Assembly: GCA_002951815.1 (NCBI GenBank)
Contig: CP019454.1
Coordinates: forward strand, 62,001 to 126,000
Direction: 5' to 3'
Length of the DNA stretch: 64,000 bases
From: Sulfobacillus thermotolerans
Lineage (GTDB): Bacteria; Bacillota; Sulfobacillia; Sulfobacillales; Sulfobacillaceae
Shown here: one piece after another, positions 22,206-37,477 of the stretch
How positions within the stretch are numbered: position 1 is the first letter of the stretch
Layout: the number at the start of each line of letters is the position of its first letter
Made by a program: the position numbers and the translations under genes
Notes under the pieces: generated by a model
Told to the model about the DNA's origin: nothing
Seen by the model: the letters and a program-made list of their open reading frames with translations, nothing else
The model's database searches: none

Positions 22206-23441
22206 GTGCAGATTTTGTTTGTGGGCTACGATTCGTCGGATGCCCGCCTCGAAGAGGCCCGTGAGGCTGGCCATGCAGTGGACCACCATGCTGGACTGCT
22301 CGATGCTCCCGCGCAAGGGCAGTTGTGGAAAGGCTTAATGTTGGCGCCACCCGATGTCGTGTGGGTGCGATGGAGTGCTGTGAGTCCTCTCGACGTCGCG
22401 TCCCTTCGGCGCTTCCGGGTGGCCCGACCTACCGTACGCCTGGTTATCGATATTCCCGAGACCTTACAGCCTCCAGACACCACCCTAGGGGAACTGGTGG
22501 CGATGGGGATCTATGATATCGTGGGCCCGATGCAATCCTTACGGGACAGTCTTCGGAAGACCCCGACATATGCGGACGCGGCCCGTTGGCAGTGGGGGGG
22601 AGTCACCGAGTCAGACGCGGTGACTCCGACCGACAAACGACGGCCCGTTATCGAAAAGAAAATTGCGAGTACGCGGCGACCGGCTTTAATTACCGTGCGG
22701 GGTTTACTACCGGGGGCGGGAACCACGCTGTTAGCGATAGCAGTGGCGCGGTGGTTGGCGGAACATGGGTATCCGACGGCTTTGCTCGAGTATTTCGCTC
22801 CGGATCAACACAAGCCTAGTGATTTAGCCCGCATGATGGCGGATGATCGCCATCAATGGCCCTCCGTATTGCACGTATTCCCGAGTGGTCCCACGTTCGG
22901 ACCCCGGCAGCCCGCCGCCCTGTTAGTGACTGTGATGGCCGCCCGTCAGGCGGCTTATATTGTGCTGGACCTGGGGGCGGGGGTGAGCGCGGACGTTCCG
23001 ATGCTGGTCGATTTAGAACTGAGTGTGTGTCCACCACCGACGCGCTGGGCCCAAGTCCCGGCCCTGGCGCAATCGGATACGTTGTTACCGTTGTCGCGGG
23101 CCGAGCCCGTAATTTGGATGCCGGGGACACCGAACGAGGCGGTGAAAGCCCGCTGTCGCCATGTACTTCCTCTGCCGGACTCCAATTTCCCCGCACTATC
23201 CCCGGCGTTGGATATGGCCCTGGGAAGGCTTTTGGCACCCATTCGGCCCGACGTGGTCGTGCCGTGGTGGAAATTATGGTGGCATAAGCATCATGATCGC
23301 ATCCGGCCTTGGGCGTTATCCGTCGGGGGGCTTGGCGTCTTGGGTTTGTTAGTGTATGCGGTCGCCATTCATTGGTCCCATGGACCCTGGCCCCACTGGC
23401 ACTTCACGCGCTGGATTCAGATGGGGCGCCACACCGTGTAA
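22206..23441 (+). CDS. CpaE/TadZ-like ATPase with degenerate P-loop and C-terminal membrane helix
   Basis: The 411-residue protein starts at GTG 22206 after GGGAGGTGA. The first ~120 residues resemble a receiver-like domain (MQILFVGYDSSDARLEEA, VRLVIDIPE). The next domain is MinD/ParA-like: GLLPGAGTTLLAIAVARWL near residue 170 is in the Walker A position but lacks the signature and catalytic lysines. Residues ~375-392 form a membrane helix. TadZ/CpaE proteins position Tad pilus machines; membrane anchoring is unusual. A second, intact copy lies at 24015. Confidence 0.6.
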   Translation: MQILFVGYDSSDARLEEAREAGHAVDHHAGLLDAPAQGQLWKGLMLAPPDVVWVRWSAVSPLDVASLRRFRVARPTVRLVIDIPETLQPPDTTLGELVAMGIYDIVGPMQSLRDSLRKTPTYADAARWQWGGVTESDAVTPTDKRRPVIEKKIASTRRPALITVRGLLPGAGTTLLAIAVARWLAEHGYPTALLEYFAPDQHKPSDLARMMADDRHQWPSVLHVFPSGPTFGPRQPAALLVTVMAARQAAYIVLDLGAGVSADVPMLVDLELSVCPPPTRWAQVPALAQSDTLLPLSRAEPVIWMPGTPNEAVKARCRHVLPLPDSNFPALSPALDMALGRLLAPIRPDVVVPWWKLWWHKHHDRIRPWALSVGGLGVLGLLVYAVAIHWSHGPWPHWHFTRWIQMGRHTV

Positions 23442-23577
23442 TGGCCAGCGGTCAGGCAGTGCAAGACAGATCAAAGTTCCTGAGGTTTTATCTGTAAAGT
23501 GTCTCCCAATAACGAGGGCGGGTCCTGCCCCGAAGGTGTGACCCAAAGAAATTCTAGAGGAAGAGAGGACACTATTT

Positions 23578-23949
23578 ATGACACCGCAACGCGCTGAAAC
23601 GTTCGCGCCGGCATCCCCAATAACACGGGAATGGACGGCCCAAACAACAGCCTTTACCGAGAAATTTCAGGCCATGGTGCAGCAGCTCATGCTCGGCACA
23701 TGGGCTGTCTGTGAGGAGGATATCGTGGCTATCCACGAGATGGTGCGGAAGTTAGCCGCCTTAGACACAGAACGCGAAGCTCTTTGGGGAGGATTACAAC
23801 AACGCGTGCAACATCTGGCCAGCTTAGTGGAATCCATTAAGGCGCCATCGGAGACCGATTCGGGGAGAGAATCGCGTTCCACACGGGGCGAGGGGAATAA
23901 ACCCGAGGAGGCTAGCACGGGAGATCCCGTCTTACCGAAACTGCTGTAA
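23578..23949 (+). CDS. Small helical protein of unknown function
   Basis: The 123-residue protein starts at ATG 23578. Residues 20-85 are helical and heptad-like (TEKFQAMVQQLMLG, EMVRKLAALDTEREALWGGL), followed by a charged, disordered tail. No family is recognised. It sits between two CpaE-like ATPases and may link them or be a pilus-operon accessory. Confidence 0.5.
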   Translation: MTPQRAETFAPASPITREWTAQTTAFTEKFQAMVQQLMLGTWAVCEEDIVAIHEMVRKLAALDTEREALWGGLQQRVQHLASLVESIKAPSETDSGRESRSTRGEGNKPEEASTGDPVLPKLL

Positions 23950-24014
23950 CGATGTTGAGAGGTTGGCGCCGCGCCCTAGACAGATCATGGGGCGGCGCAA
24001 GAAAGGAGTACACG

Positions 24015-25388
24015 ATGCAGCCATCCGCTCAGACGATGGAAGCCGCGGTGTGTGGGGTCATTCTTGGAGAGGTGTCGGAATCTTTTCGCGCACAGCTTAT
24101 GGATCAGTTGCCAGGAGCCTTACAACAGGTGGCACCGACTTGGACTCTCGACGTGTTGGACGACAACACCGATGCCTTAATGGCCTTATTGGATCAAGAT
24201 CCGGGAGCGCCGCCGCCGTGGACGGCGCTCCTCGTGACGTCGGAATTGACGGGCACATGGTCATTAGCGGACACCTTAGTCGCGTTGAAACAACGCTGGC
24301 CGACGATTCGCTACAGTCTGCTGGTGCCACGCCTCACGGCGACCACTCGCGAATTGATTGCGCTCTGTGCGGCGTACCGGTGTTACAACATCGCGGTCGG
24401 GGAGGCTTTTCCTTTGTCCCGCATTGTGCAATTGATTACGGAAGATCAAGCGTGGGACAGTATTGCCCCGTATCTCGCCTCGGAGGCCCCTCCGATCATC
24501 GCCACCCCCTCATGGGTCGGCACCGAATCGTCTGGGGTTCTGCCCACCCCGACCTATACGGTCGCGGTGATTTCCGGAAAAGGCGGAGTCGGCAAAACCG
24601 GACTGATTGCCAACTTACTGATGTCAAGCGCCCCGTGGGACAGTGTGGGCATTGACTTGGATTACATCAAGCCGTCATTGCCGCTCTATTTTCATGAAGC
24701 TCAGGAGGCGCCGACCCTCGATTTGCGCAGCTTGCTGATGCAAATTGCCACCCATCACCGGGCCCCGATGCAAGCCGCGCATTTGACCGTCATCGAAGGT
24801 CTGACCTCCGATGACCGGCAAGATATCGAGCAATATGTGCGGCAGGCCGAAACCGTGAGCCCGAGCGCGCGCATTGTGCCCGGGGCGTCGCGCTTTGAAA
24901 CGGTGATGCCTGTGCCCCCGACGGTCGTGATGTCGGCCATCTTGGAAGCCTGTCAGCGACACGCCCGCTTCATTTTTGTGGATACGCCCGGGGTGCCGAC
25001 GGATCCGGTGTGGATTCACAGTGTGCAACACGCGGATTTTGTCGTCATTGTGACCACCCCGGAGTATGCGGTCGTGCTGGAAACCATTGATTTGGTCCGC
25101 AAGCTGGACTTATTACAAGTGCCGCGCGCGAAACGCGGGCTGGTGATTAACAAACGCAGTAAATGGGGCTTCTCGACCGAGTCGATTTGTGGCACCCAAC
25201 TGCCTGGCATTCCCTTGTTGGGCACGATTCCCTATGATCCGGTGCGCTGGGAACGATCCTTGCAACAGCATCGCCCCTTAGCCCTCGATCACCCCAAGCC
25301 CTGGCACCATCTGTTCCAGGCCATTACGCAGGTCACGCCGCCCCGGTCCCGCCGCGGATGGTTTCGTCGGCACAAGGAGTCCGGATGA
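24015..25388 (+). CDS. CpaE/TadZ-like MinD-family ATPase
   Basis: The 457-residue protein starts at ATG 24015 behind AAAGGAG. An N-terminal receiver-like half (VCGVILGEVSESFRAQ ... YRCYNIAVGEAFPL) precedes a complete MinD/ParA domain with Walker A VISGKGGVGKTGLIANL near residue 195. The switch segment FIFVDTPG is near 320, and an Arg/Lys-rich C terminus (SRRGWFRRHKESG) follows. It would localise or license assembly of the Tad pilus encoded next to it. The stop overlaps the VKOR gene start (ATGA). Confidence 0.75.
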   Translation: MQPSAQTMEAAVCGVILGEVSESFRAQLMDQLPGALQQVAPTWTLDVLDDNTDALMALLDQDPGAPPPWTALLVTSELTGTWSLADTLVALKQRWPTIRYSLLVPRLTATTRELIALCAAYRCYNIAVGEAFPLSRIVQLITEDQAWDSIAPYLASEAPPIIATPSWVGTESSGVLPTPTYTVAVISGKGGVGKTGLIANLLMSSAPWDSVGIDLDYIKPSLPLYFHEAQEAPTLDLRSLLMQIATHHRAPMQAAHLTVIEGLTSDDRQDIEQYVRQAETVSPSARIVPGASRFETVMPVPPTVVMSAILEACQRHARFIFVDTPGVPTDPVWIHSVQHADFVVIVTTPEYAVVLETIDLVRKLDLLQVPRAKRGLVINKRSKWGFSTESICGTQLPGIPLLGTIPYDPVRWERSLQQHRPLALDHPKPWHHLFQAITQVTPPRSRRGWFRRHKESG

Positions 25389-25615
25389 GGCCGGGGCCCA
25401 GCGTGTTGCGCGGCCTGATCGGGCTCATTGTGGGCCTCGGCAGTTATGTGACGGGGGCCGCGTGGACCGATCGCCCCGTCGCGTGTCCCGCTACCGGGAT
25501 TATTCATTGCCAGACGGTCCTGACCGGTCCGGGTCATCGCGTCGCCGGGTTGCCCCTCGCCTTCTGGGGGGTGCTATGGGCGCTGGCGGGGCTCAAGTGG
25601 CCGGGCAGGCTCTAG
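25385..25615 (+). CDS. VKOR-like disulfide oxidase, N-terminal half
   Basis: The 76-residue polypeptide overlaps the upstream gene (ATGA). It has two membrane helices and the first VKOR cysteine pair with its following motif: ACPATGIIHCQTVL, then GLPLAFWG (family: C....dC..V, G.P....G). It stops at TAG 25613-25615. The same frame then continues open and encodes the missing CxxC half. VKOR proteins reoxidise thioredoxin-like disulfide carriers using quinone; the thioredoxin-like gene lies directly downstream. Confidence 0.65.
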   Translation: MRPGPSVLRGLIGLIVGLGSYVTGAAWTDRPVACPATGIIHCQTVLTGPGHRVAGLPLAFWGVLWALAGLKWPGRL

Positions 25616-25639
25616 CGTCTCGCCGGAGGGGGCGGGCTT

Positions 25640-25768
25640 TTGTGGGCCTGGGCCCATGAATGGGGGGATGGCGCGGTGTGTTTATGGTGTACCGCTTTGC
25701 AACTCAGCATTCTCTTGGCTATCGGGGTGTCATGGATGATGACACGCCGGGCCCGAAAGGAGTCTTGA
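25640..25768 (+). CDS. VKOR-like C-terminal half with CLWC active site, after in-frame TAG
   Basis: In the same frame as the preceding gene, after the amber codon, the sequence reads on to a TGA at 25766-25768. It contains AVCLWCTALQLSILLAIGVSWM, which is the VKOR redox CxxC followed by its last membrane helix (written here as AVCLWCTALQ plus LSILLAIGVSWM). A TTG at 25640 with GGAGG at 25625-25629 could restart translation and give a 42-residue chain. Otherwise it is read-through or decay. The half lacks any other known explanation. Confidence 0.5.
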   Translation: MWAWAHEWGDGAVCLWCTALQLSILLAIGVSWMMTRRARKES

Positions 25769-25770
25769 AC

Positions 25771-26472
25771 ATGGCATTTTCTTGGACAACCTTAGCCCCG
25801 GCCACGCGCCGGTTGGCGTCCGTGGGGATTGGCGTCGCCGTGCTGGGGTGGATGGGGTTAGGCTTTACGGCCGGGGCGTGGCTGGCGCCGCACACCACGA
25901 CGCCGGCCGCGACGCCCTCGACGCCGGGGACGACCCCGGCCGCCGCGCCGGATCCTCAGACCCCATGGACCGTGGGGCACCCGGCTCCGTGGTCCGCGGC
26001 GCTGACCACGCTGTCCGGGCAGACGACCCATTTAGCGCGGGGACCCCACGGCACGATTGTGATGGCGATGGCCTCGTGGTGTCTCTTCTGCGGGTATGAA
26101 GACCGGTGGGTCTGGCCGTCTGTGGCCCGCGAGCATCCGCAGTGGGCGATTGACATTGTGGACGTGTCCCCGCAAGGCGGCATTGCCGATCCGGGACCGC
26201 AAAATCCTCCGTTTCATGGGCATGACGGCGTGGGCGGACCCTTAAGCGTGGCCCAGATGCAAACGACGATGCAGCACTATGTGCAGACCTATGGGCTGCA
26301 TGCGCCCAATATCCATGTCTACGTCGCCCCGACCGCCACCCAATCGGCGTGGGCGGTCCAAAGCTTTCCGGATATTTTTGTCATCAACGCCGCCGGGCAG
26401 ATCGTGCAACAGTCCCCCGGCGCGATTACGGCGTCGGGCGTGCCAGGGCTGCTCGCGGCGGCTCAGAAGTGA
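25771..26472 (+). CDS. Membrane-anchored thioredoxin-like protein
   Basis: The 233-residue protein starts at ATG 25771 behind AAAGGAG. An N-terminal membrane helix (residues ~17-38) is followed by a Thr/Pro/Ala-rich spacer and an extracytoplasmic thioredoxin-like domain: MAMASWCLFCGYEDRW places CLFC at the redox site near residue 105. The cis-Pro region is probably QSFPDIFVINAAG. It is likely a DsbA-like oxidant paired with the adjacent VKOR halves, serving Cys-rich pilus proteins downstream. Confidence 0.72.
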   Translation: MAFSWTTLAPATRRLASVGIGVAVLGWMGLGFTAGAWLAPHTTTPAATPSTPGTTPAAAPDPQTPWTVGHPAPWSAALTTLSGQTTHLARGPHGTIVMAMASWCLFCGYEDRWVWPSVAREHPQWAIDIVDVSPQGGIADPGPQNPPFHGHDGVGGPLSVAQMQTTMQHYVQTYGLHAPNIHVYVAPTATQSAWAVQSFPDIFVINAAGQIVQQSPGAITASGVPGLLAAAQK

Positions 26473-26489
26473 GTGCAGGAGGGCCCATC

Positions 26490-27815
26490 ATGACAGAGAA
26501 TCCCCTCATTCAAACCTTTGGCGGCACGCCCTCCCGCAATCCCTTGCAACAGCGGGATCCGCTGTCCCCGCCTGGAGAGGCCCTGCACGAGCGGGGGACC
26601 GCGCTGAGTCTGCACGCGGACGGCCCCTATGCCTCCGTGTTAGCCCAAGCGAGTACGTTACTGCGGGACCGGTATACGGCCCTCATTGCCCATGTGCAGC
26701 CGCACCAGCGGCAAGCGGTCCGGCAAGCCATCGCGGACGTGGTGCTCTCCTTGCATCCGGCGCAGAATGTTGCCGTGTGGCTCACCGAAACGTTGGAAGC
26801 GCAACTGCTCGGTGCCGGGCTGATTGAACCCTTGATGCAAGATCCGCGCATCTCCGAAATCATGGTGACGGGGCCGCACGTCTTTGTCGACGACGGCGGC
26901 CGCTTGCGCCCGGCGATGACCTTACCCCACCCTGAGGACAGCATCCGCCTCGCGCAGCATCTGGCCCGGCATTGCGGGCGCGAGTATCGCGAAACGCAGC
27001 CGTTGATGGATCTGACCTGGCCGGAGAATGGCGCCCGCATCAATATTACCCATCATCATGTCGCCCAAACGGGACCGGCTATCACCATTCGCAAACACAA
27101 TATGGGGGCGCTGCTCCAACTGGCTACGCTGATTGAGCGGGGCATGATTAGCGCCGAACCGGCGGACTTGATTGTCCGCGTCATGCGGCACAAAGGCAAT
27201 GTGTTATTTGTAGGGCCGACGCGCTCCGGGAAAACGACCCTCATGCGGGCCTTTATTATCGAAGCCGTCGGACCCGATGAACGCCTCATTGTGCTGGAAG
27301 ACACCGAAGAACTGCGCTTGCCCCATCGCCACCAAATTGCGCTGATCGGCCAAGCCCGGCTGGTGACGCCGGAGGAACGCGACCAAGGGATGGTGTCGTT
27401 GCTGGACCTGTTTCGCAATGCGCTGCGGCAAAGCCCCGACCGCATTATTATGGGCGAACTGCGGGGCCCCGAAGCCTTCGACTTTATTGAAACGGGCCTG
27501 ACCGAACGCGGCGGCAGCGTGAGTTCCTTTCACATTCGCGAACCGGAATATCTCGTGACCCGGCTGTACTGGATTGCCCAAAAGTCCGGGCTGGCCATTC
27601 CGGCGGACCTCATTTTTCGCTCGACGTACCAAGCGTTAGATCTCATTGTCCAAGTCGACCGCGATGACACGGGGTTTCGCTGGGTGCGCCGGATTGTCGA
27701 ACCGCAGGATGATGGCACCGTGGCCGATCTCTTTGTGGGCGATCCCCGCGATCACACGTGGCAGGCCCTCACCCCGCCCTCACCCAAACTGCGGCGGCTG
27801 TGGGAAGGAGGCTAA
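26490..27815 (+). CDS. cpaF: CpaF/TadA secretion ATPase
   Basis: The 441-residue protein starts at ATG 26490 after GCAGGAGGG. The N-terminal part has the CpaF features LMQDPRISEIMVTGP and NGARINITHH. The RecA-like domain has Walker A GPTRSGKTTLMRA near residue 241, an Asp box (LIVLEDTEELRLP) and Walker B RIIMGELRGPEAFD. TadA/CpaF hexamers power extension and retraction of Tad pili. It is followed by TadB and TadC homologues in the usual order. Confidence 0.92.
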   Translation: MTENPLIQTFGGTPSRNPLQQRDPLSPPGEALHERGTALSLHADGPYASVLAQASTLLRDRYTALIAHVQPHQRQAVRQAIADVVLSLHPAQNVAVWLTETLEAQLLGAGLIEPLMQDPRISEIMVTGPHVFVDDGGRLRPAMTLPHPEDSIRLAQHLARHCGREYRETQPLMDLTWPENGARINITHHHVAQTGPAITIRKHNMGALLQLATLIERGMISAEPADLIVRVMRHKGNVLFVGPTRSGKTTLMRAFIIEAVGPDERLIVLEDTEELRLPHRHQIALIGQARLVTPEERDQGMVSLLDLFRNALRQSPDRIIMGELRGPEAFDFIETGLTERGGSVSSFHIREPEYLVTRLYWIAQKSGLAIPADLIFRSTYQALDLIVQVDRDDTGFRWVRRIVEPQDDGTVADLFVGDPRDHTWQALTPPSPKLRRLWEGG

Positions 27816-27819
27816 GGCC

Positions 27820-28692
27820 ATGCATTCCCTCATGTTATGGGGCGTCGCGGTGCTGGGGTTGCTGTTGATGGGCTGGGGGGTGTGGCAATGGCGATCCGTG
27901 CCAGTGGCCCTCTCGTGGCAACCGCCGCCGGTCACGGTGCCTCCGGTCTTGGGCCTCAATGCCTCCTGGCTGGCGCTCACGGGATGGCCCTTAACCCCCC
28001 GGCGCTTGCAGATCGTAAATGGGGCGGCGGCGGGGCTGGCGCTGATCGGGGTCACCGTGGTCACACGTAATCCGCTGGTGGGCATCGCGGGCGGGGTGTT
28101 TGCCTTGGGCATTCCGGAAGGCATTGTGCGCTGGCAAGCCCGCCGGCGCTGGAAAATGCTCGACGAGACAGCGCTCAGTGCCTGTACGAGCCTCCGTTTT
28201 GCCCTCGAAGACCATCAGCCGGTCTTGCCCACGTGGCAACGGCTCTATGCGTATAGCACCGGAGCCTGGCGGACCTTTCTGGCCCCCTGTTTGACCGCGG
28301 AAGCGACCGGCCAGCAAGCCTTCGAAACGGTCTTTAAGCAGACGGCGCGGGCCATTCATCACGTGGAATTGCAACTGGTGGGCGATATTGTCGCGACCGA
28401 ACGCACCCGCGGCAATACCGTGGATCTGTTGGCGACCATTTTACACTTGTGGAGCCAGCGTCTGGAAGCCGATGCCCGGCGTCGGGGGCAAATTCATGCC
28501 GGGGCCTGGCTGTCGCGGGTGCTGCTCTGGGGGGGCGTCGTTGGGTTTGTGCTGATCTGGACGCAATCCCCGGCCGTGGCCCACGGAGCGCAGCACGGCA
28601 TCGGTTTCGTGGTTGTCGGCGCAGGCGCTTTGGTGATTGCCTTGGGCGCCTGGGTCCAGCGCCAAGCCGAACGCAAAGCCGAACAAGTCTAA
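27820..28692 (+). CDS. tadB: TadB-like pilus platform protein
   Basis: The 290-residue protein starts at ATG 27820 after GGAAGGAGG. It has one N-terminal membrane helix, a helix pair around residues 60-90, the T2SSF-type cytoplasmic helical domain (residues ~120-210) and two C-terminal membrane segments. The middle segment EATGQQAFETVFKQTARAI resembles other TadB proteins. TadB and TadC form the inner-membrane platform driven by CpaF. Assignment relies on topology, position and length as much as motifs. Confidence 0.7.
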   Translation: MHSLMLWGVAVLGLLLMGWGVWQWRSVPVALSWQPPPVTVPPVLGLNASWLALTGWPLTPRRLQIVNGAAAGLALIGVTVVTRNPLVGIAGGVFALGIPEGIVRWQARRRWKMLDETALSACTSLRFALEDHQPVLPTWQRLYAYSTGAWRTFLAPCLTAEATGQQAFETVFKQTARAIHHVELQLVGDIVATERTRGNTVDLLATILHLWSQRLEADARRRGQIHAGAWLSRVLLWGGVVGFVLIWTQSPAVAHGAQHGIGFVVVGAGALVIALGAWVQRQAERKAEQV

Positions 28693-28721
28693 CGCATTCT
28701 CCGAAGGAGGTCCTGGCGTCT

Positions 28722-29549
28722 ATGTCGATTTCGTCGCTTCCCCTGATTGTCGGTGTGGCCGGGGTGAGTCTGTGGGGCTGGGGCTGGTGGCGGTTGTGGC
28801 ATCAGGCCCCGGTGCTGTCCTTTACGCCCCGCGACCGCTGGAGTACACGGCTGCGCAATGGGCTCTTAACCGCCCTGCAACAACGCTGGGCGCACCGGGT
28901 CCGTCAAGAACTCGCGGTGCTGGGCTGGACGCCCGCCACCGTGGCGATCTGGACGGTCTTCTTTGCCGCCTTTGCGGGCATTCCGGTGCTCATTGTCACC
29001 CATCATCTCCTCTGGAGCCTGCTCACAGCCGCCCTGGGCGCGTGGTTTGGCCCGCAATTCTGGATTCATCGCCATTTTGTGAGCTGGCAGCAGGAGCTTT
29101 TGCGGGATTTTGTGCCGCTGACGTTACTGCTGAGTGTCTATTTCGACCTGGGATTTTCGCCCGAAGCCGCGTTGACCGAAACCCTGCCGGCCTTAGGCGA
29201 AGTCACGGCGACACAAGTCCGCCGCCTCGTGGCGCAATGGCGGCAACAAGACGGCACCCCGGCCGAAGCGGTGCAACACTGGGCCCAGCGCTTACAGCTC
29301 TTGCCCTATCAGCAGTTGGCCGATGTGTTAGCCAATAACCTCGACCGAGGGCTCAGCGGGGCGGCCTTAAAGCCCTTGCACACCTTGGTCTCAGCGCAAC
29401 AGCAACAAGGGGCGCGCGCCTTGGCCGACCGCGTCGATCAACAAATGACGGTGGTTCCCGCGTTGGCGATGCTGGGGCTGATGCTCGTCGGGCTGTATGC
29501 ATTCTTTGCCCATGGCTTAGCCGGGCAAGGCGGGCTCACAGTGCTCTAA
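28722..29549 (+). CDS. tadC: TadC-like pilus platform protein
   Basis: The 275-residue protein starts at ATG 28722 behind GAAGGAGG. It has an N-terminal helix, a helix pair near residues 75-105, a T2SSF-like cytoplasmic domain (LLSVYFDLGFSPEAALTETL, residues ~135-155) and a C-terminal membrane helix (ALAMLGLMLVGLYAFFAHGL). The order CpaF-TadB-TadC is that of Tad loci. Two platform proteins rather than one distinguish Tad from type II secretion. Confidence 0.7.
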   Translation: MSISSLPLIVGVAGVSLWGWGWWRLWHQAPVLSFTPRDRWSTRLRNGLLTALQQRWAHRVRQELAVLGWTPATVAIWTVFFAAFAGIPVLIVTHHLLWSLLTAALGAWFGPQFWIHRHFVSWQQELLRDFVPLTLLLSVYFDLGFSPEAALTETLPALGEVTATQVRRLVAQWRQQDGTPAEAVQHWAQRLQLLPYQQLADVLANNLDRGLSGAALKPLHTLVSAQQQQGARALADRVDQQMTVVPALAMLGLMLVGLYAFFAHGLAGQGGLTVL

Positions 29550-29559: not shown

Positions 29560-30225
29560 ATGATGTGGCGATATGGCACCTCGCTCTTTTGGATGGTGCG
29601 GTGGCAAGGGGTGTTCCGTGCGCTAGGCGTAGCGGCCGTCCTAGCGGCGTATGGCCTGGGGGCTCCCGGGTTGGGAGACGGGCTCTTACTGCTCGTCTTA
29701 GCCCCCTCCCTGTATTTTTTGTGGGCCCCCTTGCATTGGGCGCGGCGGCATCATCAGCGGGCCATTTGGGCGACGCCGGTGCCGCCTGGGTGGATGCAGC
29801 GGCAGCTTCCGACGCCGATGCGCTTAGGGCCGGTGGTCTGGGAAGTGCATGCCCAAGACGGGCGGCGCTGGCACGCGGACACGCCGCACGCCGCCGCCCG
29901 CCAATATCGGCACACGTATGCCGCGGAGATCATCGATCTGATTCAGACCCGGCCTGCCACGGTCGCGTTGGTCTCGTCGGGCTTTAACCGCTTAACGCCC
30001 GCGGAAGCCGACGCCATTACAGCGGCGGGCGGGCAGATCTGGGACGGTCCGTTATGGCCGCGTCTCTTACGCCGCTATCCTCCGTGGATCATGCGGGCGA
30101 CTCAAAAACACATGTTTGGGGGCGTCGTGTCGACCACAGACCGCCGGGTGGCGGCCACCTGGGTGACGTGGGCCGTGCCCGCCCGCCGTATGACGACCCC
30201 GCGTGTCGCGGAAAGGAGTGTCTAA
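29560..30225 (+). CDS. Tad-locus membrane protein of unknown function
   Basis: The 221-residue protein has GGAGG nine bases before the start. Two or three N-terminal helices (residues ~17-60) precede a soluble, Trp/Arg-rich domain of about 150 residues (WHADTPHAAARQYRHTYAAE) with no recognised motif. It sits between TadC and the pilin gene, so a pilus-assembly role is inferred from position only. Confidence 0.55.
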   Translation: MMWRYGTSLFWMVRWQGVFRALGVAAVLAAYGLGAPGLGDGLLLLVLAPSLYFLWAPLHWARRHHQRAIWATPVPPGWMQRQLPTPMRLGPVVWEVHAQDGRRWHADTPHAAARQYRHTYAAEIIDLIQTRPATVALVSSGFNRLTPAEADAITAAGGQIWDGPLWPRLLRRYPPWIMRATQKHMFGGVVSTTDRRVAATWVTWAVPARRMTTPRVAERSV

Positions 30226-30351: not shown

Positions 30352-30615
30352 ATGATCATCACACGCACACACACGTTCCGTTCTTTCCGGTCCCGCGCTC
30401 TGGCGGTCCTGATGCTTTTGATGGCGTTGCCCGTCACGTTCCGCCGGTCGTTGACCCGCCGTATGCCGGCGGCTTCGGGGCACACCCAAGAAATTATCTG
30501 GATCGTGATTGCTGTCATTGTTGGATTGATCGCTTATGCCTTCTTTGGCAACGGGGGGGGCGGATGGACCTGGTTCCACAACCAGTTGAACAGCATCACG
30601 CAATTTAGCGACTAA
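30352..30615 (+). CDS. Flp-like type IVb prepilin
   Basis: The 87-residue protein starts at ATG 30352 behind CAAGGAGG. It has a long basic leader (~42 residues) and then SGHTQEIIWIVIAVIVGLIA: a Gly processing site, a Glu a few residues later and a single hydrophobic helix, as in Flp pilins. A short Gly/Trp-rich tail follows. The leader is longer than in typical Flp (about 20). Prepilin peptidase is encoded at 33198. A hairpin directly follows, as expected for a highly expressed pilin. Confidence 0.65.
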   Translation: MIITRTHTFRSFRSRALAVLMLLMALPVTFRRSLTRRMPAASGHTQEIIWIVIAVIVGLIAYAFFGNGGGGWTWFHNQLNSITQFSD

Positions 30616-30684: not shown

Positions 30685-31743
30685 ATGCGACGAGGACCCG
30701 GTGGGCGCGTCCGCGTGTTAGCCGCCGCCGATACGATTGGCACGGTATTAGGCCTCGTGCTCGTCTTGATGGGGGTGACGGGCGGCATTGCGGGCTACCG
30801 GTTATGGCATGTCCAACAGACCTTGAACCGCGCGGCCAGTGCGGCCGCCACGTCCGAAGCCCAAAACGGGTGTTGGACCGCGCAAACGTCGCAAATTGTC
30901 GCGCAGGTGCTGCAAGGCGGCGGCTTGCCCATTTCTGGCGCGAATGCCGTCCAAGTGACGCACTACAGTAACCCGCAAGGGACGACGACGCCCTATGGGC
31001 AGATGGTCACGGCCCAATTGCATTGGGCCGTGCCGATTAGCGTGGTGCGCTTGCAATTGCCCACCACGGTGCCGTTAAGCAGTGCGGTGGTCCAGCCCTC
31101 GCAGTATGTGGCCTTGGGCGGGAACACCGCGCAAAGCAATGGGGCCTGTACGCCGCCAGATTTGACGGTCACGGCCCAGACGGTGGCGGCGGCTAATGAC
31201 GACGCGGCGGCCGCCACCACTAATACGGCGGCCGATACGCCGACGACGACGTGTACGCCCACGACGGTGGAGGTCACCAAAACGGTGCCGCAATCGGAAT
31301 CGTGTACGCCCGAGACCCATACAGAGTGCTCCCCGGTGTCTCATGAAACGTGGGTCGATTCGACCTACGAAGCGTGTGGGGATACCACCCAATATGAATA
31401 CACGTGCCGCGAGGTTAATAGTTGCACACCGCAATCCGTTTGTTCCACACACTATCAAACATGGTGTGACCTTTATAATGATGGGGCCTATGGTTCATCG
31501 CCTTCTCATCCTGTCACGCATTGTGTATCTGTGCCGATTTCGACTTGCTCAACGGAAACGGTGTGTTCCACTCACAATGTGTGTGGGAGTTCCCCAGTCA
31601 CTACGTATAGTTGCCATCCCGTCACCACGGGCCATTGGCAAACCGAGACGACGCAGTCGTGCCATGACGTCACGACGACACAATGCCAGACCATTGCGGC
31701 GCATACCGAACAGGTGCCGGAAACGGTGGAACAATGTTCGTAA
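30685..31743 (+). CDS. TadE-like pilus protein with Cys-rich extracellular domain
   Basis: The 352-residue protein starts at ATG 30685 behind AGGAGGTGA. An N-terminal helix (residues ~15-35) and the following RLWHVQQTLNRAASAAA resemble TadE minor pseudopilins. From about residue 155 the protein is Thr/Ser/Cys-rich, with about 18 cysteines overall, many in repeats such as SCTPETHTEC and TVCSTHNVC. That tail is far longer than in normal TadE and implies an oxidised, rigid surface domain. The last ten bases overlap the next gene. Confidence 0.6.
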   Translation: MRRGPGGRVRVLAAADTIGTVLGLVLVLMGVTGGIAGYRLWHVQQTLNRAASAAATSEAQNGCWTAQTSQIVAQVLQGGGLPISGANAVQVTHYSNPQGTTTPYGQMVTAQLHWAVPISVVRLQLPTTVPLSSAVVQPSQYVALGGNTAQSNGACTPPDLTVTAQTVAAANDDAAAATTNTAADTPTTTCTPTTVEVTKTVPQSESCTPETHTECSPVSHETWVDSTYEACGDTTQYEYTCREVNSCTPQSVCSTHYQTWCDLYNDGAYGSSPSHPVTHCVSVPISTCSTETVCSTHNVCGSSPVTTYSCHPVTTGHWQTETTQSCHDVTTTQCQTIAAHTEQVPETVEQCS

Positions 31744-32354
31744 CGGAGGGGCGGCGCATCCGCCGCAACCCGGAGCACCGGGTGCCGGCCGTGGCTACGC
31801 TGCTCTTTGCGATCGAGATGTTGGTGCTGTTGCTGTTGGTGATGACGGTCTGGCTGGTCTATACCCAAATTCACGACGAAGAACATCTCATCAATGCGGC
31901 TTTGACGGCCGGATTGGAACGCGCCGCCGTGACGCCTGTCACTCAAGCCGGAGCCTACGACAATGTCGGGTGGAATGGCGCCGGCGTCACGTTGACGTCC
32001 AGCCAATTGCCCGTCGCTTTAAGCACGACGTTGCAAAGCGCCGTCCCCGGCAGTACGACGCAGGTCGAAGGCCAATCGGTACAATGGCAGTTACCCGCGG
32101 CGACGGCGGCGGCCTGGCATGTTACGGCCCCTATCACCATCTCGGCCTTACAAGCCACGTCCGGTCCGGACCAACCTGTCACCGTAGGGTCGCAGACGAC
32201 AACGTATGGCTATCCCGTCATCGCGGGGGCTGTCAAGGTCCCCGTTCACGTCGTCTCGCTGGACCAGTTTCAGTGGACGGCGACGCTGACCGAATCGTTT
32301 GTGCTGCCCCTCGCGGGCCGCGAAAATCCGACGACGATTCGGCCCTTAGGCTAA
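31734..32354 (+). CDS. TadE/TadG-like minor pilus protein
   Basis: The 206-residue protein starts at ATG 31734 within the upstream gene. Residues ~20-42 form a strong membrane helix (PAVATLLFAIEMLVLLLLVM), followed by EEHLINAALTAGLERAAV, the layout of TadE-type pseudopilins. The rest is Thr/Val-rich beta sequence without Cys, unlike its upstream neighbour. A strong GC hairpin follows. Confidence 0.55.
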   Translation: MFVTEGRRIRRNPEHRVPAVATLLFAIEMLVLLLLVMTVWLVYTQIHDEEHLINAALTAGLERAAVTPVTQAGAYDNVGWNGAGVTLTSSQLPVALSTTLQSAVPGSTTQVEGQSVQWQLPAATAAAWHVTAPITISALQATSGPDQPVTVGSQTTTYGYPVIAGAVKVPVHVVSLDQFQWTATLTESFVLPLAGRENPTTIRPLG

Positions 32355-32391
32355 CAGCGTCGGGTGGGAACTGCGAATGATTCGATGCTGG

Positions 32392-32417
32392 GCCCGGCGG
32401 GCGAAGGTCCGCCGGGC
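32392..32417 (+). terminator. GC-rich hairpin between TadE-like and CpaB genes
   Basis: GCCCGGCGG (32392-32400) pairs perfectly with CCGCCGGGC (32409-32417) around an eight-base loop, followed by TTCTTGG. The poor T tract suggests attenuation rather than full termination. Confidence 0.5.
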
Positions 32418-32451
32418 TTCTTGGTGATCAACGAAAGGAGTGACGCGCATC

Positions 32452-33201
32452 ATGATGCAAGGATCGGTGGCCTCCACGCCTCCGGCCAAAGTCCAGACGG
32501 GACGCCGGCCGCTCGGCCGGGTCTTAAAACTGGTGGCGAGTTTTGGCGGCGGGCTCGTGCTCTTAGGCATCGCCCATAGCTTGACCTTGCCCCCGCATCC
32601 TCATACGGTGTGGGTGGTGAAAACAGCGGTCAGTCCGGGCACGCCCATTACGCCGCAAACGGTGACGCCCCTGAAAACCTTATCGGCGTGGCCGCACGCG
32701 CTCACGACGGTGCCCACGGGCTGGGTCGCCAAAACCGCCTTAGCGCCGGGTCAGCCCCTCTTAGCCTCGGCGGTCACCCCGGCCGCTGGCTTTCGCGGCT
32801 TAAAAGCGCACGAAGCGGTCTGGACGATTCCGGTCAGCGCCGTCGGTAGTGGCATGGTTCAACCGGGGGATCGCGTGGACGTGTGGAGTGATCCGCAAAG
32901 TCAACCCACGAGTGGGAATACGGCTTCGACGGGCTTTGCCACCGAATGGGCCACGGGAGTCCGCGTGCTGGGGATCTACTCGAGTTCGGGGACGCCGGTT
33001 TCCGGCCAAACGGCGATTGGGATCGTGACGCTCGCGGTGCCGACGTCCGCCTTGCCCATTTTACTGACGATTGCCAATCCGGCGTTGGTGATGACGCCCG
33101 CGGCGACGCACTTTGCCCTGGTGGTCAATACGGCGCCCGTGTCGACCACGGCGCCAGCGCCCACGAAGGCGGCGGCGCATGCGTCGAGGCCCAAAGGATG
33201 A
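32452..33201 (+). CDS. cpaB: CpaB-like pilus assembly protein (SAF domain)
   Basis: The 249-residue protein is read from ATG 32452, with AAAGGAG at 32434-32440. It has a membrane helix at residues ~27-45 and then a SAF-like domain: VWVVKTAVSPGTPITPQTVT and GWVAKTALAPGQPLLASAVT, the hallmark of CpaB/RcpC. The following part has VGSGMVQPGDRVDVW. CpaB is a periplasmic or cell-wall-facing gate component in Tad systems. The end overlaps the peptidase gene (ATGA). Confidence 0.82.
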   Translation: MMQGSVASTPPAKVQTGRRPLGRVLKLVASFGGGLVLLGIAHSLTLPPHPHTVWVVKTAVSPGTPITPQTVTPLKTLSAWPHALTTVPTGWVAKTALAPGQPLLASAVTPAAGFRGLKAHEAVWTIPVSAVGSGMVQPGDRVDVWSDPQSQPTSGNTASTGFATEWATGVRVLGIYSSSGTPVSGQTAIGIVTLAVPTSALPILLTIANPALVMTPAATHFALVVNTAPVSTTAPAPTKAAAHASRPKG

Positions 33202-33638
33202 TCACGGGCCTCTGGACGCTGGTCTTAGCCGGACTCGCGTGGGCCGATTGGCGCCAGCGCAGTGTGGCCCTGTATACGCTGGTGGGGAGTACGCTGTTGA
33301 CCATTCTGGTCTTTCCGCCATGGCATTATGCCGCCGCTTGGGAAGCGGCGGCGATCACGTGGGGCCTCTGGGCGGGTTACGTGGGATTGCGCCGTCTGCG
33401 GCCACCGCATCCGGTCATTTGGGGCGGAGCAGATTACACGGTTGCCAGTCTCACGGTGCTCTGGATGCACGGCGTGTGGCTGTCGGTGTGGTGGATGACG
33501 ATCGCGGCCTTTGGCGTGCAGCTTCTGGTCACCGGGCTCTTGGGGCTCTGTCACCGTCCAGTGCCCATCCCATGGCCGTGGCTGGTGGGGTTCAGCGGGG
33601 TCTGGCTGATCTGGCACGCCGTCCCCGGCGTGCATTAG
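33198..33638 (+). CDS. Minimal A24 prepilin peptidase (CpaA/TadV-like)
   Basis: The 146-residue protein overlaps the CpaB stop. It has four to five membrane helices and both aspartates of the A24 family: Asp17 in AWADWRQRSV and Asp near residue 77 in GGADYTVASL (the GxGD motif with Ala for the second Gly). These enzymes cleave Flp leaders. The size suits TadV, which lacks the N-methylation domain. The non-canonical GGAD leaves some doubt about activity. Confidence 0.7.
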   Translation: MITGLWTLVLAGLAWADWRQRSVALYTLVGSTLLTILVFPPWHYAAAWEAAAITWGLWAGYVGLRRLRPPHPVIWGGADYTVASLTVLWMHGVWLSVWWMTIAAFGVQLLVTGLLGLCHRPVPIPWPWLVGFSGVWLIWHAVPGVH

Positions 33639-33727
33639 TCCCCGTCGCAAGCAGGAATTTTGTATCCTGTGGGCGAATGATGAGTCCTCAGAAGCGTTGA
33701 GGCTTCGGACACTTTAAGGAGGATATT

Positions 33728-35248
33728 ATGAACACATTGATGCATCGTATGACCAGCGGCCTGGCAGTGCTGGCATTGAGCGCCGCGAGTGTGGGAGCCA
33801 GTGTTCCCACCCAAGCGGCAAGCCTTCCGGCTTTGACCCTCTCGGCCACGGGCTCCAATACGGTCGGGGGTACGGTGACGCTGACGGCCCACCAATCCGG
33901 GCCCACGTGGTATGACTGGTGGGTGCAAGACGCCAACGGGCAATGGCAACAAGTTGCGGCGGGATTGAATCAGGCTACCTATACGATGAAAGATTTACAG
34001 CCCGGCAGTTATCTCGTTGTCGTCAAAACCTTAACCCCGGCCCAACTCGCGGCGCACGACTGGGGCGCCGCACAAGCGGCGCAACAAACGGTCAATGTGG
34101 ACACGTCCGTGACGTTTACCCAAATGACCGACCCTAATCCTCCGAGTGCATATGGTACGGGCTATGCAGCGGCAGGGCATCAAGAAGTGATTACCGCCCA
34201 AGCCCACCACATCACGAACCCTGTCTATCAGTTTTGGATTGAACAAAATGGGCATTGGACCGGCAGTAACTATACGGCGAACAATACGTATACGTTTACG
34301 CCGACCACCTCGAATTTTGAAGTCGCCGTCTACGCCAAAACCGTAGCCGAACCGACGAATGCGGGAGCCGGGGTGGGCCTGACGGCTAGCGCGGCGACCA
34401 CGCAACGGCTCTTTAATACGCAAGAGGCTCTTCAAGATGCCGAGACAACGGTTGTTGGAGTTTTACGCAATCCTCAAATTGAGCGCTACACCTTTACGGC
34501 GATGCCGGTTAACAATAATGGTACGTTACCGCCGTCGTTTTATGGCCCTATCCCTTCAGCCTCCGTTATTGATCCCCACATTCCGTCGACGTTGCCGGCC
34601 AACGGGAGTATTACCGGAGCTCAGGCCTTACTCGCCGCGAATCCCTCGTTGCTCAGTCAAGCGCAGGCGATTGTGGGTCCAGAAGGCTACTCAGTGACCA
34701 ATCAAACCTTGATAGCGGGAATGCACTCGGCGGCGCAGGCGGTCTTAGATCGCAATAGTAACGACCCGATGACGCTGCTAAATATGGCTGTTCCCTCGTC
34801 ATTGCCGGTTGGCGAAACTTTCGAAGGTCCTCAACCATCGCTGATCCAATCAGTGTTGAATCAATACGCGTCGCCTAATTACAGTATTCTCGCGGATAAG
34901 CTCTATACGTATGATGAATCAGCTACCATTCAAACGAACGCTCAAGCGTCAACCGCCACAGTGTCTAAGCCGCAAGCGCCTAACGGGGCGTACTATCAGA
35001 CGCCGAATTCACCGTACTATCCCCAATGGTTGCTGACGATGACGGTACCGGTGACGGCGGACGTTGTGGTGTATGGGCAAAATGCAAATACTGCCTCGTC
35101 AGGAACGGTCGGAGAATTCCCAATTACTACCCAAGTAACCGTCTCCTTATTTGTCGATCCTTTAGCGTCAGGAGGAGTCCAGTGGGGATATAATGGAGAA
35201 ACCTCTCCACAGCTTGGTACATTTACGCCATATTGGCAGGCGAACTAA
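33728..35248 (+). CDS. Large exported protein of unknown function
   Basis: The 506-residue protein has AAGGAGG just before its ATG and a signal peptide ending near TQAASLPA. The mature part begins with an Ig-like or beta-sandwich-type segment (TVTLTAHQSGPTWYDWW, then QPGSYLVVVKTLTPA), repeated loosely near residue 150 (HQEVITAQAHHITNPVYQFW). The remainder is Thr/Asn/Ser/Tyr-rich, typical of surface adhesins. No Cys is obvious. It is the first gene after the Tad operon and could be its tip or associated cell-surface protein. Confidence 0.6.
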   Translation: MNTLMHRMTSGLAVLALSAASVGASVPTQAASLPALTLSATGSNTVGGTVTLTAHQSGPTWYDWWVQDANGQWQQVAAGLNQATYTMKDLQPGSYLVVVKTLTPAQLAAHDWGAAQAAQQTVNVDTSVTFTQMTDPNPPSAYGTGYAAAGHQEVITAQAHHITNPVYQFWIEQNGHWTGSNYTANNTYTFTPTTSNFEVAVYAKTVAEPTNAGAGVGLTASAATTQRLFNTQEALQDAETTVVGVLRNPQIERYTFTAMPVNNNGTLPPSFYGPIPSASVIDPHIPSTLPANGSITGAQALLAANPSLLSQAQAIVGPEGYSVTNQTLIAGMHSAAQAVLDRNSNDPMTLLNMAVPSSLPVGETFEGPQPSLIQSVLNQYASPNYSILADKLYTYDESATIQTNAQASTATVSKPQAPNGAYYQTPNSPYYPQWLLTMTVPVTADVVVYGQNANTASSGTVGEFPITTQVTVSLFVDPLASGGVQWGYNGETSPQLGTFTPYWQAN

Positions 35249-35269
35249 GCGTCACAATTGACGACAAGC

Positions 35270-35303
35270 GGACCCCCCTAGCAGATGTCTAGGGGGGTCT
35301 CCG
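35270..35303 (+). terminator. Strong hairpin after the exported-protein gene
   Basis: GACCCCCCTAG (35271-35281) pairs with CTAGGGGGGTC (35289-35299), an 11-bp perfect stem. No U-run follows immediately, so it may act as a bidirectional block. Confidence 0.6.
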
Positions 35304-35333
35304 TATTAGGTATTAGTATTATAGGAGGGTTTT

Positions 35334-36194
35334 ATGAACAAATCGACGATGCTCGTTCTCGGAAGCTTGATGGGTTTGGGTCTTGTTACAGGTGTGATCC
35401 TTACCAGCCATCACTCTAAGCCAGTGGCTCGCGGGCACACTTCAATACATCGAGACGCCATCTCGCGATTCTATAGGAAGTCTTCCTCGACTTCTCTCCT
35501 AGAAAACCTTCGGCGTGCGAATCAACACGAAACACAACAGGTTATGCAGACGATAGACCCAAGTTATCCCGCACTCCGACAGACCAAGGGGTTCATTACC
35601 CCAACCATGGCGGAAATTAGCCTCACAGGTTTTACCCCACATCCTCCTGTCGTTACGGGGACGCATGCTTTATGGAGGATGTTGCGTACCTCCTTAGCTC
35701 ATCCCCCGGCGCGAATTCTCTCTCATCCCCTCCCGGCATCGGTCTGGATCGATGGATGGCAACAAGCTGAAGACGATGTGATGACCGTGTTAGGCAATGA
35801 TCCGATTGCGGTCTTATCTCATGCGGGACCGGGCGCTGCGCCTGCATTTGCTCAATTAGAACGGATTGCGTATACCGGATCGGGCGATGAAATCCGCGGG
35901 CATCACTGGGCTGTGTCGATGATCGCATCGCTTTCGCCACATGTGACGTTTTATCCTCCTACTAAGCCGATTGCGGGAGAGCCTCCGACGCTCGTGCAGA
36001 TGCGCGTACCTGTTACGGTCACGGAATATATGGCCATCGCCAACCCCGGAAATACACAGCGTACCGTCGCATTTACCGCATTACAAACGGGCGTGGCCCT
36101 GATGGTCTTAACTCAAGACCGTGGACGTTATCATTGGTGGGTAGATGCTCTGTCAACCACGCGTCCGCAACCGATTACATTTCCCGCTCATTAA
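35334..36194 (+). CDS. Exported or membrane-anchored protein of unknown function
   Basis: The 286-residue protein starts at ATG 35334 after GGAGGG. Residues ~7-25 are hydrophobic (signal or anchor), followed by a polar region rich in His, Ser and Pro. No motif is recognised. It sits in the exported-protein cluster (33.7-37.5 kb). An inverted repeat follows about 45 bases after its stop. Confidence 0.5.
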   Translation: MNKSTMLVLGSLMGLGLVTGVILTSHHSKPVARGHTSIHRDAISRFYRKSSSTSLLENLRRANQHETQQVMQTIDPSYPALRQTKGFITPTMAEISLTGFTPHPPVVTGTHALWRMLRTSLAHPPARILSHPLPASVWIDGWQQAEDDVMTVLGNDPIAVLSHAGPGAAPAFAQLERIAYTGSGDEIRGHHWAVSMIASLSPHVTFYPPTKPIAGEPPTLVQMRVPVTVTEYMAIANPGNTQRTVAFTALQTGVALMVLTQDRGRYHWWVDALSTTRPQPITFPAH

Positions 36195-36238
36195 GCCCTA
36201 GCGTATCAGCGGATACCTTGGCGTAAACTCTCCTCTTA

Positions 36239-36280
36239 TGCCTTCTTAATCGACGGCCAAACGAATGATAAGAAGGCATT
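36239..36280 (+). terminator. Inverted repeat, possible terminator
   Basis: ATGCCTTCTTA (36239-36249) and TAAGAAGGCAT (36270-36280) form an 11-bp perfect stem around a 20-base loop. The large loop and missing T tract make termination uncertain. Confidence 0.4.
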
Positions 36281-36409
36281 GGCGTGACCGGCAAACAGAC
36301 AACGCAGGTCGAAGCCAGACTATCGACGTGATTAGATTCAATATATAGGGATTTAGAACGCTTGCGTGCGCTATCTATAGTTTCGATATTTTACGAGGAG
36401 CGTGATGAC

Positions 36410-37477
36410 ATGGCTAGGAAACACGGAACTCCGTTAGGGTCTTTACGATTGTTAACTTATGCCATAGGACTGGGTGTCATGGGTCTGGCGAGCCACGCTA
36501 TTTTTAGATCTGTGCCGGTCTTCGCGTATACGTATCAGTGTGCAAATGGTAGCACGACAACAAATCCCTTCGGCTGTGAGACTTCAGATTCGTATCAATC
36601 ACCTACGACAACTACGTCGACAACCCCAAATACTACGGACACTTGGACGCCTGCCTCAGGATATCAACAGAACCTCACGAGTCAAATCACCAGTACGACA
36701 GCGGGCTTCAATTCCGATGCGACTAACGAAGCGGGTGGTTATACGTATAATGGATGTGCTGCTTATGGAGAGGTCACCGCGTATAACACCACTAGTAAGC
36801 AATCCTATTGTTCGCATACGGGCTGTCCAGCAGGAGAAAAGCAAATCAATAACGACGGCGTCTGTCAAGGAACAGGGAGTGACAATGCCGGCACGTATGC
36901 GCAATGGACTTTTTCGGCGTGTGTGAATGGCCATCAGACCGAATACACACATAACGTGAACTCGGGGGCTGTGGTGGACAGTAACACCATCAGTTGTATT
37001 GCCAACACCGCGTCCAATCCTACGTCAAGCCCCTCTCATGCGTCGACGGTTCACAACACAGCGGCCGCGTGTTCGGCACCCGGCGCTTCTTCCCACAGTC
37101 AACCGGCCGGCTCTTCCTTTGCCCCTACGGGGTGCGCGGGGTCGTGTACCACCAGTGGATGCACCGGGACAGGCACCGAATCAGGCATTGAGACAGATTA
37201 TACCCGCATTTGTACGACTAGCTATTCCTGCCCCGGCCCGACGGCTAACACGTCGTGTTCCACTTCGAGCTATTCGTCTAGTGCGACGCAAACGTCTTCG
37301 ACCCAATGCCAAGAAAAGGAAGTCTTGTTGGATCAGTGTATGCCGCAAGAGCCCGGGAACCGCGAAGCCGAATATTGTCTGACGTTTAACGGCGGCACCA
37401 CGAACTGTTCAGCCCCGTTTGGTGTGTACGATCCCACGAATTGCCCCATTCCGGTGGGCGTCGGCAGTGGGTCGTAA
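36410..37477 (+). CDS. Cys-rich exported protein
   Basis: The 355-residue protein is read from ATG 36410, nine bases after GAGGAG. A hydrophobic N terminus (residues ~12-40) ends near VFAYTYQ, a plausible signal cleavage. The mature part is dominated by Thr, Ser, Gly and Asn, with about 20 cysteines, for example GCAGSCTTSGCTG. This echoes the composition of the Cys-rich TadE-like protein at 30685. Correct folding outside the cell would need disulfide formation, which the VKOR/thioredoxin pair could supply. No family is recognised. Confidence 0.6.
   Translation: MARKHGTPLGSLRLLTYAIGLGVMGLASHAIFRSVPVFAYTYQCANGSTTTNPFGCETSDSYQSPTTTTSTTPNTTDTWTPASGYQQNLTSQITSTTAGFNSDATNEAGGYTYNGCAAYGEVTAYNTTSKQSYCSHTGCPAGEKQINNDGVCQGTGSDNAGTYAQWTFSACVNGHQTEYTHNVNSGAVVDSNTISCIANTASNPTSSPSHASTVHNTAAACSAPGASSHSQPAGSSFAPTGCAGSCTTSGCTGTGTESGIETDYTRICTTSYSCPGPTANTSCSTSSYSSSATQTSSTQCQEKEVLLDQCMPQEPGNREAEYCLTFNGGTTNCSAPFGVYDPTNCPIPVGVGSGS

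Follow-up and report, generated by a model that had tools for sequence, protein, structure and literature searches.

The chromosome of Sulfobacillus thermotolerans Kr1 carries, within what is supported as an integrated conjugative plasmid, a nearly complete set of genes for a Tad pilus next to the genes of a conjugative type IV secretion system (T4SS), and this pairing recurs across its family, the Sulfobacillaceae. Our analysis concerns positions 62,001–126,000 of contig CP019454.1 (a stretch of 64,000 nucleotides, hereafter the window, in whose coordinates positions are given unless another contig or the chromosome is named). We favour the reading that the element-borne Tad pilus serves mating contact, at a confidence that we put at about even; pilus formation, cell contact and the dependence of transfer on the pilus are all things that we infer. 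This interpretation draws on the gene order shared with free plasmids typed as conjugative, a census of VirB4 loci, four architectures that join Tad and transfer genes, exchange of the Tad module between transfer systems, the ratios of nonsynonymous to synonymous substitution (dN/dS) of the Tad genes, and precedents from R64, PAPI-1 and Myxococcus, which together leave a mating pilus evenly poised in our assessment.

The window was compared with the free circular plasmids pL15 and pY0017 and with neighbourhoods fetched from Sulfobacillaceae genomes (labelled G001, G018 and so on), which were examined by profile searches. Taken as the unit common to Kr1 and G019, the Tad module proper spans 23952–37477 and comprises the following genes.

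23952..25388, + strand: CpaE2, a TadZ/CpaE-like MinD ATPase and first gene of the module (ParA/CbiA domain; G018/G019 orthologue 61–63% identical)
25385..25615, + strand: truncated vitamin K epoxide reductase (VKOR)-like fragment of 76 amino acids (orf25385; identified by comparison with pL15/pY0017)
25771..26472, + strand: exported thioredoxin/ResA-like protein (CxxC motif CLFC; conserved in related Tad blocks)
26490..27815, + strand: CpaF/TadA assembly ATPase (T2SSE 3e-22; TIGR03819 8e-58)
27820..28692, + strand: TadB-like platform protein (by its relatives, in which T2SSF is matched)
28722..29549, + strand: TadC-like platform protein (by its relatives, in which T2SSF is matched)
29560..30225, + strand: conserved membrane protein of this Tad group (orf29560; retained in pL15, pY0017, G018, G019 and G024)
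30352..30615, + strand: Flp-like major pilin of 87 amino acids, GHTQEIIWIVIAVIVGLIAYAFF (orthologues in related Tad blocks; cleavage site not canonical)
30685..31743, + strand: TadE1, a TadE-like minor pilin with an exported head of 18 cysteines (TadE 1.3e-3)
31734..32354, + strand: TadE2, a second TadE-like minor pilin (orthologues in related Tad blocks)
32452..33201, + strand: CpaB/RcpC (SAF/RcpC 1e-6; TIGR03177 1.4e-11)
33198..33638, + strand: probable minimal prepilin peptidase (Asp in ADWR and GGAD; six predicted helices)
33728..35248, + strand: exported protein without cysteine (conserved in the G019 Tad module, 64%)
35334..36194, + strand: exported protein (conserved in the G019 Tad module, 48%)
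36410..37477, + strand: exported Thr/Ser-rich protein with 20 cysteines (orf36410; conserved in G018/G019, 62–64%)

The Tad genes all lie on the plus strand, are tightly packed and have starts preceded by ribosome-binding sites; an overlap or a gap of at most 30 bp separates CpaE2/orf25385, CpaF/TadB, TadB/TadC, TadC/orf29560, TadE1/TadE2 and CpaB/peptidase. The order and coordinates of this run, as given in a first-pass annotation of the window, were confirmed by the layout of the open reading frames (ORFs), by profile matches and by orthologues that follow one another in the same order in related elements, that of the Flp pilin included. Profile searches identify CpaF as a member of the TadA family of assembly ATPases and also identify CpaB, and the TadE match of TadE1 is weak and falls below the cut-off. 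The window TadB and TadC are on their own too divergent for a useful Pfam match; T2SSF is matched in 4 of 16 relatives (best 8e-6), and the presence of adjacent TadB and TadC platform proteins is supported indirectly, by position and by homology to these relatives. Pfam likewise gave nothing useful for the Flp-like pilin on its own. The protein has a transmembrane helix, and the glutamate of the G/XXXXE(Y/F) site is present in Kr1, G018 and G019 with the glycine register off by one; this glutamate is absent from the orthologues of pL15, pY0017 and G020.

The set had been described as complete, and it is nearly so for a monoderm, but the Flp cleavage site departs from the canonical one and no secretin (RcpA/CpaC) was detected among the Pfam-scanned ORFs of the Tad block. 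We do not count the latter against membership, since the secretin belongs to diderm Tad systems only and its absence is expected here. The ORF at 33198–33638 is probably a minimal prepilin peptidase, as first proposed: two conserved aspartate positions (in ADWR and in GGAD/GLAD) and six predicted helices agree with that assignment, but the protein has no Pfam match and its low-confidence model (pLDDT 63) found no PDB match by Foldseek.

Fourteen of the 18 cysteines of TadE1 are invariant across aligned relatives, and its model, of low confidence (pLDDT 54), contains a long N-terminal helix; the head of the protein is probably a disulfide-bonded tip. The exported thioredoxin-like protein is kept in the Tad blocks of pL15, pY0017, G018, G019, G020, G024 and G025. 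The VKOR homologue, which in Kr1 lacks the CxxC half, has about 300 amino acids in pL15 and pY0017 and retains that half. A disulfide-hardened tip would be reasonable for an extreme acidophile, because both TadE1 and orf36410 are cysteine-rich, most such Tad blocks include an exported thioredoxin and the two plasmids encode a full-length VKOR. TadE1 is interrupted in some relatives: an IS3-like insertion breaks it in the Tad block of G018:C2 (155644–158490; L064/L065), and reverse transcriptase/maturase genes of group II introns disrupt TadE1 of pY0017 as well as VirD4 of pL15 (L043:22415–25257 and L044:29012–33853). A lone TadE1-like ORF lies downstream of a VirB4/SLT/CpaE1 block in G025:C55 (L047:17352–17864), on a contig without CpaF.

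Profile searches recovered a conjugative T4SS set in the window, consisting of a relaxase, VirD4, VirB4, a VirB6-like channel protein and a VirB1-like transglycosylase. The genes flanking the Tad module on both sides are these.

22206..23441, + strand: CpaE1, CpaE/MinD-like, with an atypical Walker A motif (GAGTT) and a C-terminal transmembrane helix (relatives near VirB4)
38094..39047, + strand: ParM/StbA-like actin for plasmid segregation (ALP_N/MreB-like; same place in pL15 and pY0017)
39958..40870, + strand: two small proteins ahead of the relaxase, by eye candidate ribbon-helix-helix relaxosome accessories (conserved position)
40900..42105, + strand: MobP-type relaxase (MobP3 3e-37, below the curated cut-off; MobL 2e-4; pL15 orthologue annotated as MobL relaxase)
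42111..44258, + strand: VirD4 coupling protein of the CD1115 family (NF045973 above cut-off)
44717..45607, + strand: ArdC-like antirestriction protein (domain match)
46050..47033, + strand: TrbL/VirB6-like channel protein (TrbL_4 3e-29)
47377..47712, + strand: PrgI/VirB3-like small membrane protein, named by position and size (conserved position; no Pfam match)
48429..50216, + strand: VirB4 ATPase (P-loop_TraG 1e-16)
50258..52018, + strand: VirB1-like lytic transglycosylase (SLT 6e-15)

The relaxase, VirD4 and VirB-like genes that the first-pass annotation had placed after the Tad block are thus supported by matches to MobP3, VirD4, TrbL_4, VirB4 and SLT profiles. Of the two CpaE-like genes it had assigned to the Tad run, CpaE2 stands as a Tad-module gene. 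CpaE1 more likely belongs to the T4SS backbone, judging from its relatives: in G070, G131 and G145 they lie close to VirB4 in elements without Tad, and in G001, G003, G017, G022 and G025 they follow downstream of VirB4/SLT.

The Kr1 chromosome contains an 83,269-base integrated plasmid-like region whose guanine-cytosine (GC) content is higher and whose homologues are the free plasmids pL15 and pY0017 (PMC6803676). The authors of that 2019 report assigned the CpaF/TadB/TadC genes to a putative type II secretion system (T2SS) and the MOBP relaxase/TraG/VirB4 genes to a type IV system, and described the region as a putative conjugative plasmid that had integrated (PMC6803676). The gene content of the Kr1 element is therefore already in print, which limits the novelty of the element itself. 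Both plasmids, which PLSDB types as conjugative and MOBP, share with Kr1 the order Tad-ParM-relaxase-VirD4-ArdC-TrbL-VirB4-SLT. The occurrence of this order on two free circular molecules, together with the earlier description of the region as a conjugative plasmid that has integrated, supports the assignment of the window Tad and T4SS genes to such an element, in agreement with the first-pass annotation. At 20 kb of the window the GC content climbs from 53% to about 60%, and a search for direct repeats flanking the element, covering −20 kb to 104 kb in window coordinates, gave none.

We took a census of VirB4 across four complete or near-complete Sulfobacillaceae genomes using matches above the cut-off to Pfam PF19044, a criterion not tied to Tad; an earlier search with the Kr1 VirB4 protein had missed the divergent VirB4s of G018, G019 and G020, and the PF19044 census was used in its place. 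All ten VirB4-type loci lie 4–31 kb from a CpaF gene, and over 200,000 trials random placement never brought more than 6 of the 10 that near. The 31-kb limit was itself chosen from these distances, and the ten loci are orthologous in part and form about five independent kinds, so that independent linkage events number fewer than ten. For the family, the census and the random placement reject the idea that Tad is an accidental neighbour of the transfer genes, within the limits of a data-derived threshold and of orthologous loci that are not independent.

Four mobile-looking architectures join Tad to transfer ATPases (VirB4 plus VirD4 or an FtsK-type ATPase). Architecture A comprises Kr1, pL15 and pY0017, together with G024, where it is apparently split over two contigs. 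Architecture B, found on G018:C2 and near 0.37 Mb on G019:C1, has a Tad block about 62% identical to that of Kr1 and a different VirB4-VirB3-VirB6 set with VirD4 and SLT; G018 also encodes a Replic_Relax protein. In architecture C (G018:C1 near 0.16 Mb and G019:C1 near 0.65 Mb), the run ParM-CpaE-CpaF-TadB-TadC-TadE-CpaB is followed by VirB6/3/4-like genes and SLT, with an FtsK-type ATPase also seen in G018. In architecture D (G020:C1, 1.158–1.206 Mb), VirB4/SLT/FtsK-type genes stand between two Tad loci and a tyrosine integrase is present; the stretch 1158320–1206364 (L068/L069/L070) appears as one integrase-bearing element, and the two flanking Tad loci differ from each other. The MobP3 relaxase search returned no match in G018, G019 or G020, and on G018:C2 the Replic_Relax protein takes that place.

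The Tad module and the T4SS of Kr1 have different closest relatives. Kr1 CpaF is 62–64% identical to that of type B (G018/G019) and 44–45% to those of pL15/pY0017, and in the CpaF tree it is sister to type B (support 0.995), apart from pL15, pY0017, G024 and G025. Kr1 VirB4, in contrast, is 56–57% identical to those of pL15/pY0017 and 23% to type B; in the VirB4 tree it groups with G001 and G025, near pL15, and type B forms a distant clade. The Tad module has thus been exchanged between unrelated transfer systems, yet has stayed with one. The closest Tad blocks (G018:C2 and G019:C1) adjoin T4SS genes of a different type, and no stable chromosomal copy of this block free of transfer genes was found among these nearest relatives.

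The Tad genes are under purifying selection on the free plasmids. Between pL15 and pY0017, dN/dS is 0.09 for CpaE, 0.09 for CpaF, 0.12 for TadB, 0.12 for TadC and 0.10 for CpaB, as compared with 0.10 for VirB4, and the Tad genes are therefore kept as strictly as the transfer ATPase.

The pairing also has a fixed chromosomal version. A single run in G011:C32 (137233–144631; L113:7233–14631) encodes a TrbL_4/VirB6-like protein, a VirB4 partner (VirB4N), VirB4, a SAF/CpaB-like protein, a CpaE-like protein, CpaF, a TadB-like and a TadC-like protein; G008 has the same order, and the hybrid locus was noted in G020 as well (L117 and L111 in G008 and G020). By hand count, 19 of 34 family genomes have VirB4 of this kind and CpaF at most 7 kb apart on one contig; in five Sulfobacillus genomes the distance is 22–32 kb, among them Kr1, where about 30 kb split the locus (chromosome 1738076–1742960 and 1771495–1774089). 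High-scoring VirB4s of the hybrid-locus kind were found inside the family only. Since the chromosomal locus has neither relaxase nor VirD4, the VirB4-Tad partnership is not confined to mobile elements. We tentatively propose, with somewhat less assurance than for mating contact, that Tad is a standing partner built into each VirB4-type locus found in the complete or near-complete family genomes, whether mobile or chromosomal, which would form a hybrid Tad-T4SS class that includes the fixed chromosomal locus and pilus-bearing conjugative elements.

Kr1 has a further, separate chromosomal Tad locus at 2.68 Mb (2666989–2685532; L122, L077) with two CpaE genes, CpaF, TadB, TadC, CpaB and a TadE-like gene. 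No VirB4 lies nearby and its CpaF is only about 36% identical to the element CpaF. About 10 kb from the locus, on the low-coordinate side, are a TraG/VirD4-like ORF of 515 amino acids and a possible Replic_Relax-like ORF.

In the mechanism that we favour, the element would encode a Tad pilus (Flp, type IVc) of the monoderm kind. The Flp pilin, once matured by the element's own small peptidase, would be polymerised by CpaF, TadB and TadC, and CpaE2 and CpaB would position the machine. TadE1/TadE2 and the cysteine-rich exported proteins may form the disulfide-hardened tip, with the exported thioredoxin helping them to fold. The pilus would attach to a recipient cell and keep it in place, and the adjacent T4SS (MobP relaxase, VirD4, VirB4, VirB6-like protein and transglycosylase) would then pass single-stranded plasmid DNA. 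Its action would resemble that of the accessory type IV pilus in IncI/R64 or PAPI-1, but with Tad parts as the building material and in a Gram-positive cell.

Three observations weigh against this reading. Contigs G022:C345, G017:C123 and G025:C1 carry the same T4SS type (VirB4 about 50–55% identical) and are Tad-less, and the 17 close VirB4 relatives from 16 genomes outside the family have, among the matches listed, no Tad CpaF (E ≤ 1e-60) within 40 kb on the same contig. Tad is thus not obligatory for the Kr1-type T4SS; an addition rather than a necessity fits an accessory contact filament, but fits cargo too. Finally, the chromosomal VirB4-Tad locus comes without relaxase, VirD4 or a recognisable pilin, and linkage alone therefore does not mean mating.

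A mating-contact pilus nevertheless ranks ahead of two alternatives that we regard as unlikely and place level with each other. The first is a single chimeric, envelope-spanning apparatus formed by Tad and a VirB4/VirB6 core, with Tad as an extracellular conduit or pseudopilus, which would transfer DNA on mobile elements and perform another transport task on the chromosome. The family-wide chromosomal run from VirB6 to TadC and its close VirB4-CpaF spacing speak for this arrangement, as do architectures B, C and D, where Tad genes run straight into VirB2/3/4/6-like genes, and a like model has been proposed for the type IV pilus and VirB4/VirD4 of PAPI-1 (PMC12857230). In the Kr1/pL15 type, however, ParM and relaxosome genes stand between the Tad module and the T4SS, and the same T4SS type occurs elsewhere without Tad.

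According to the second, the pilus would be cargo of use to the host, an adhesin in biofilm or on mineral surfaces that rides the conjugative plasmid with no part in mating, as in Cutibacterium acnes, whose Flp/Tad plasmids are discussed as adhesion factors, with the link to conjugation stated as unclear (PMC5696575). Among type IV filament systems, Tad is the commonest on plasmids (PMC6668835), and the Tad-less relatives of the Kr1-type T4SS agree with cargo. Cargo would not be expected beside every VirB4 locus of every type in the complete or near-complete family genomes, nor re-paired with different T4SSs, and the Kr1 host already possesses its separate Tad locus at 2.68 Mb.

Far less probable is that the genes constitute a T2SS-like machine that secretes the exported proteins at 33728–37477 and forms no pilus: TadB/TadC were called a putative T2SS (PMC6803676) and three exported proteins travel with the module, but the jointly conserved combination of Flp pilin, TadE, CpaB and a TadA-type ATPase marks a Tad system, and the Pfam scan recognised no other T2SS component in the Tad block. 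Slighter still is the chance that Tad and VirB4/VirB6 import DNA, as Tad does in the competence of Micrococcus luteus (Tad-dependent transformation cited in PMC5696575), a role that the chromosomal locus without relaxase and VirD4 would suit, but the mobile version in the window sits with a relaxase and coupling protein, which serve donation.

Two further genes were identified beyond these blocks.

19984..21180, + strand: HTH_36 replication-initiator-like protein in the left part of the element (domain match; relatives in G025:C138 and G022:C345)
52952..54073, + strand: Toprim protein, primase-like (domain match)

Relatives of the initiator-like protein precede Tad in G025:C138 and the relaxase in G022:C345. 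An ORF of 82 amino acids at 19530–19775 resembles part of this downstream gene and is possibly a remnant near the element's left end. An AT-rich (44%) minus-strand stretch at 56256–62638 includes a D12-class adenine methyltransferase (58057–58929), and two small, similar-looking proteins at 60045–61071 precede a transposase-like ORF at 61274.

The closest known systems share parts of this arrangement. pL15 and pY0017 are the same type of element, from which Kr1 differs by another Tad module, extra exported proteins and the truncated VKOR. The type IV pilus of R64 helps mating in liquid and that of PAPI-1 is essential (PMC12857230); like the Kr1 element, R64 with its thin pilus and PAPI-1 are mobile elements with a type IV filament besides T4SS ATPases (PMC12857230), but theirs are Gram-negative type IV pili assembled by type II-like machinery, whereas the Kr1 system would be a Tad filament in a monoderm, with a putative role. 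The linear Flp/tad plasmids of C. acnes are also Gram-positive and combine a tad locus with VirB4/TcpC/FtsK-type transfer genes; they are actinobacterial, and the part of the report used here names no relaxase and states the mating role as unclear (PMC5696575). The Kil Tad pilus of Myxococcus xanthus contacts other bacteria through tips of TadE/F/G-like minor pilins, but it serves predation in a diderm together with a needleless type III secretion system (PMC12075869). Gram-positive T4SSs of the pCF10 and pIP501 types have the same set of relaxase, VirD4, VirB4, VirB6-like and VirB1-like proteins, and a review describes conjugation by these systems as working without conjugative pili, with wall-anchored adhesins often in their stead (PMC12857230).

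As far as our searches of the open-access literature show, neither the partnership of VirB4 and Tad across the family nor the chromosomal hybrid locus nor the exchange of the module has been described before. If the Tad pilus makes mating contacts, Gram-positive conjugation would have a pilus, drawn from a filament family other than that of the T4SS pilus. The recurrent VirB4-Tad pairing, its fixed chromosomal version included, adds to PAPI-1 another, independent example in which T4SS ATPases are coupled to a type IV filament. What is new is the family-wide pattern, which makes a Gram-positive 'mating pilus' directly testable.

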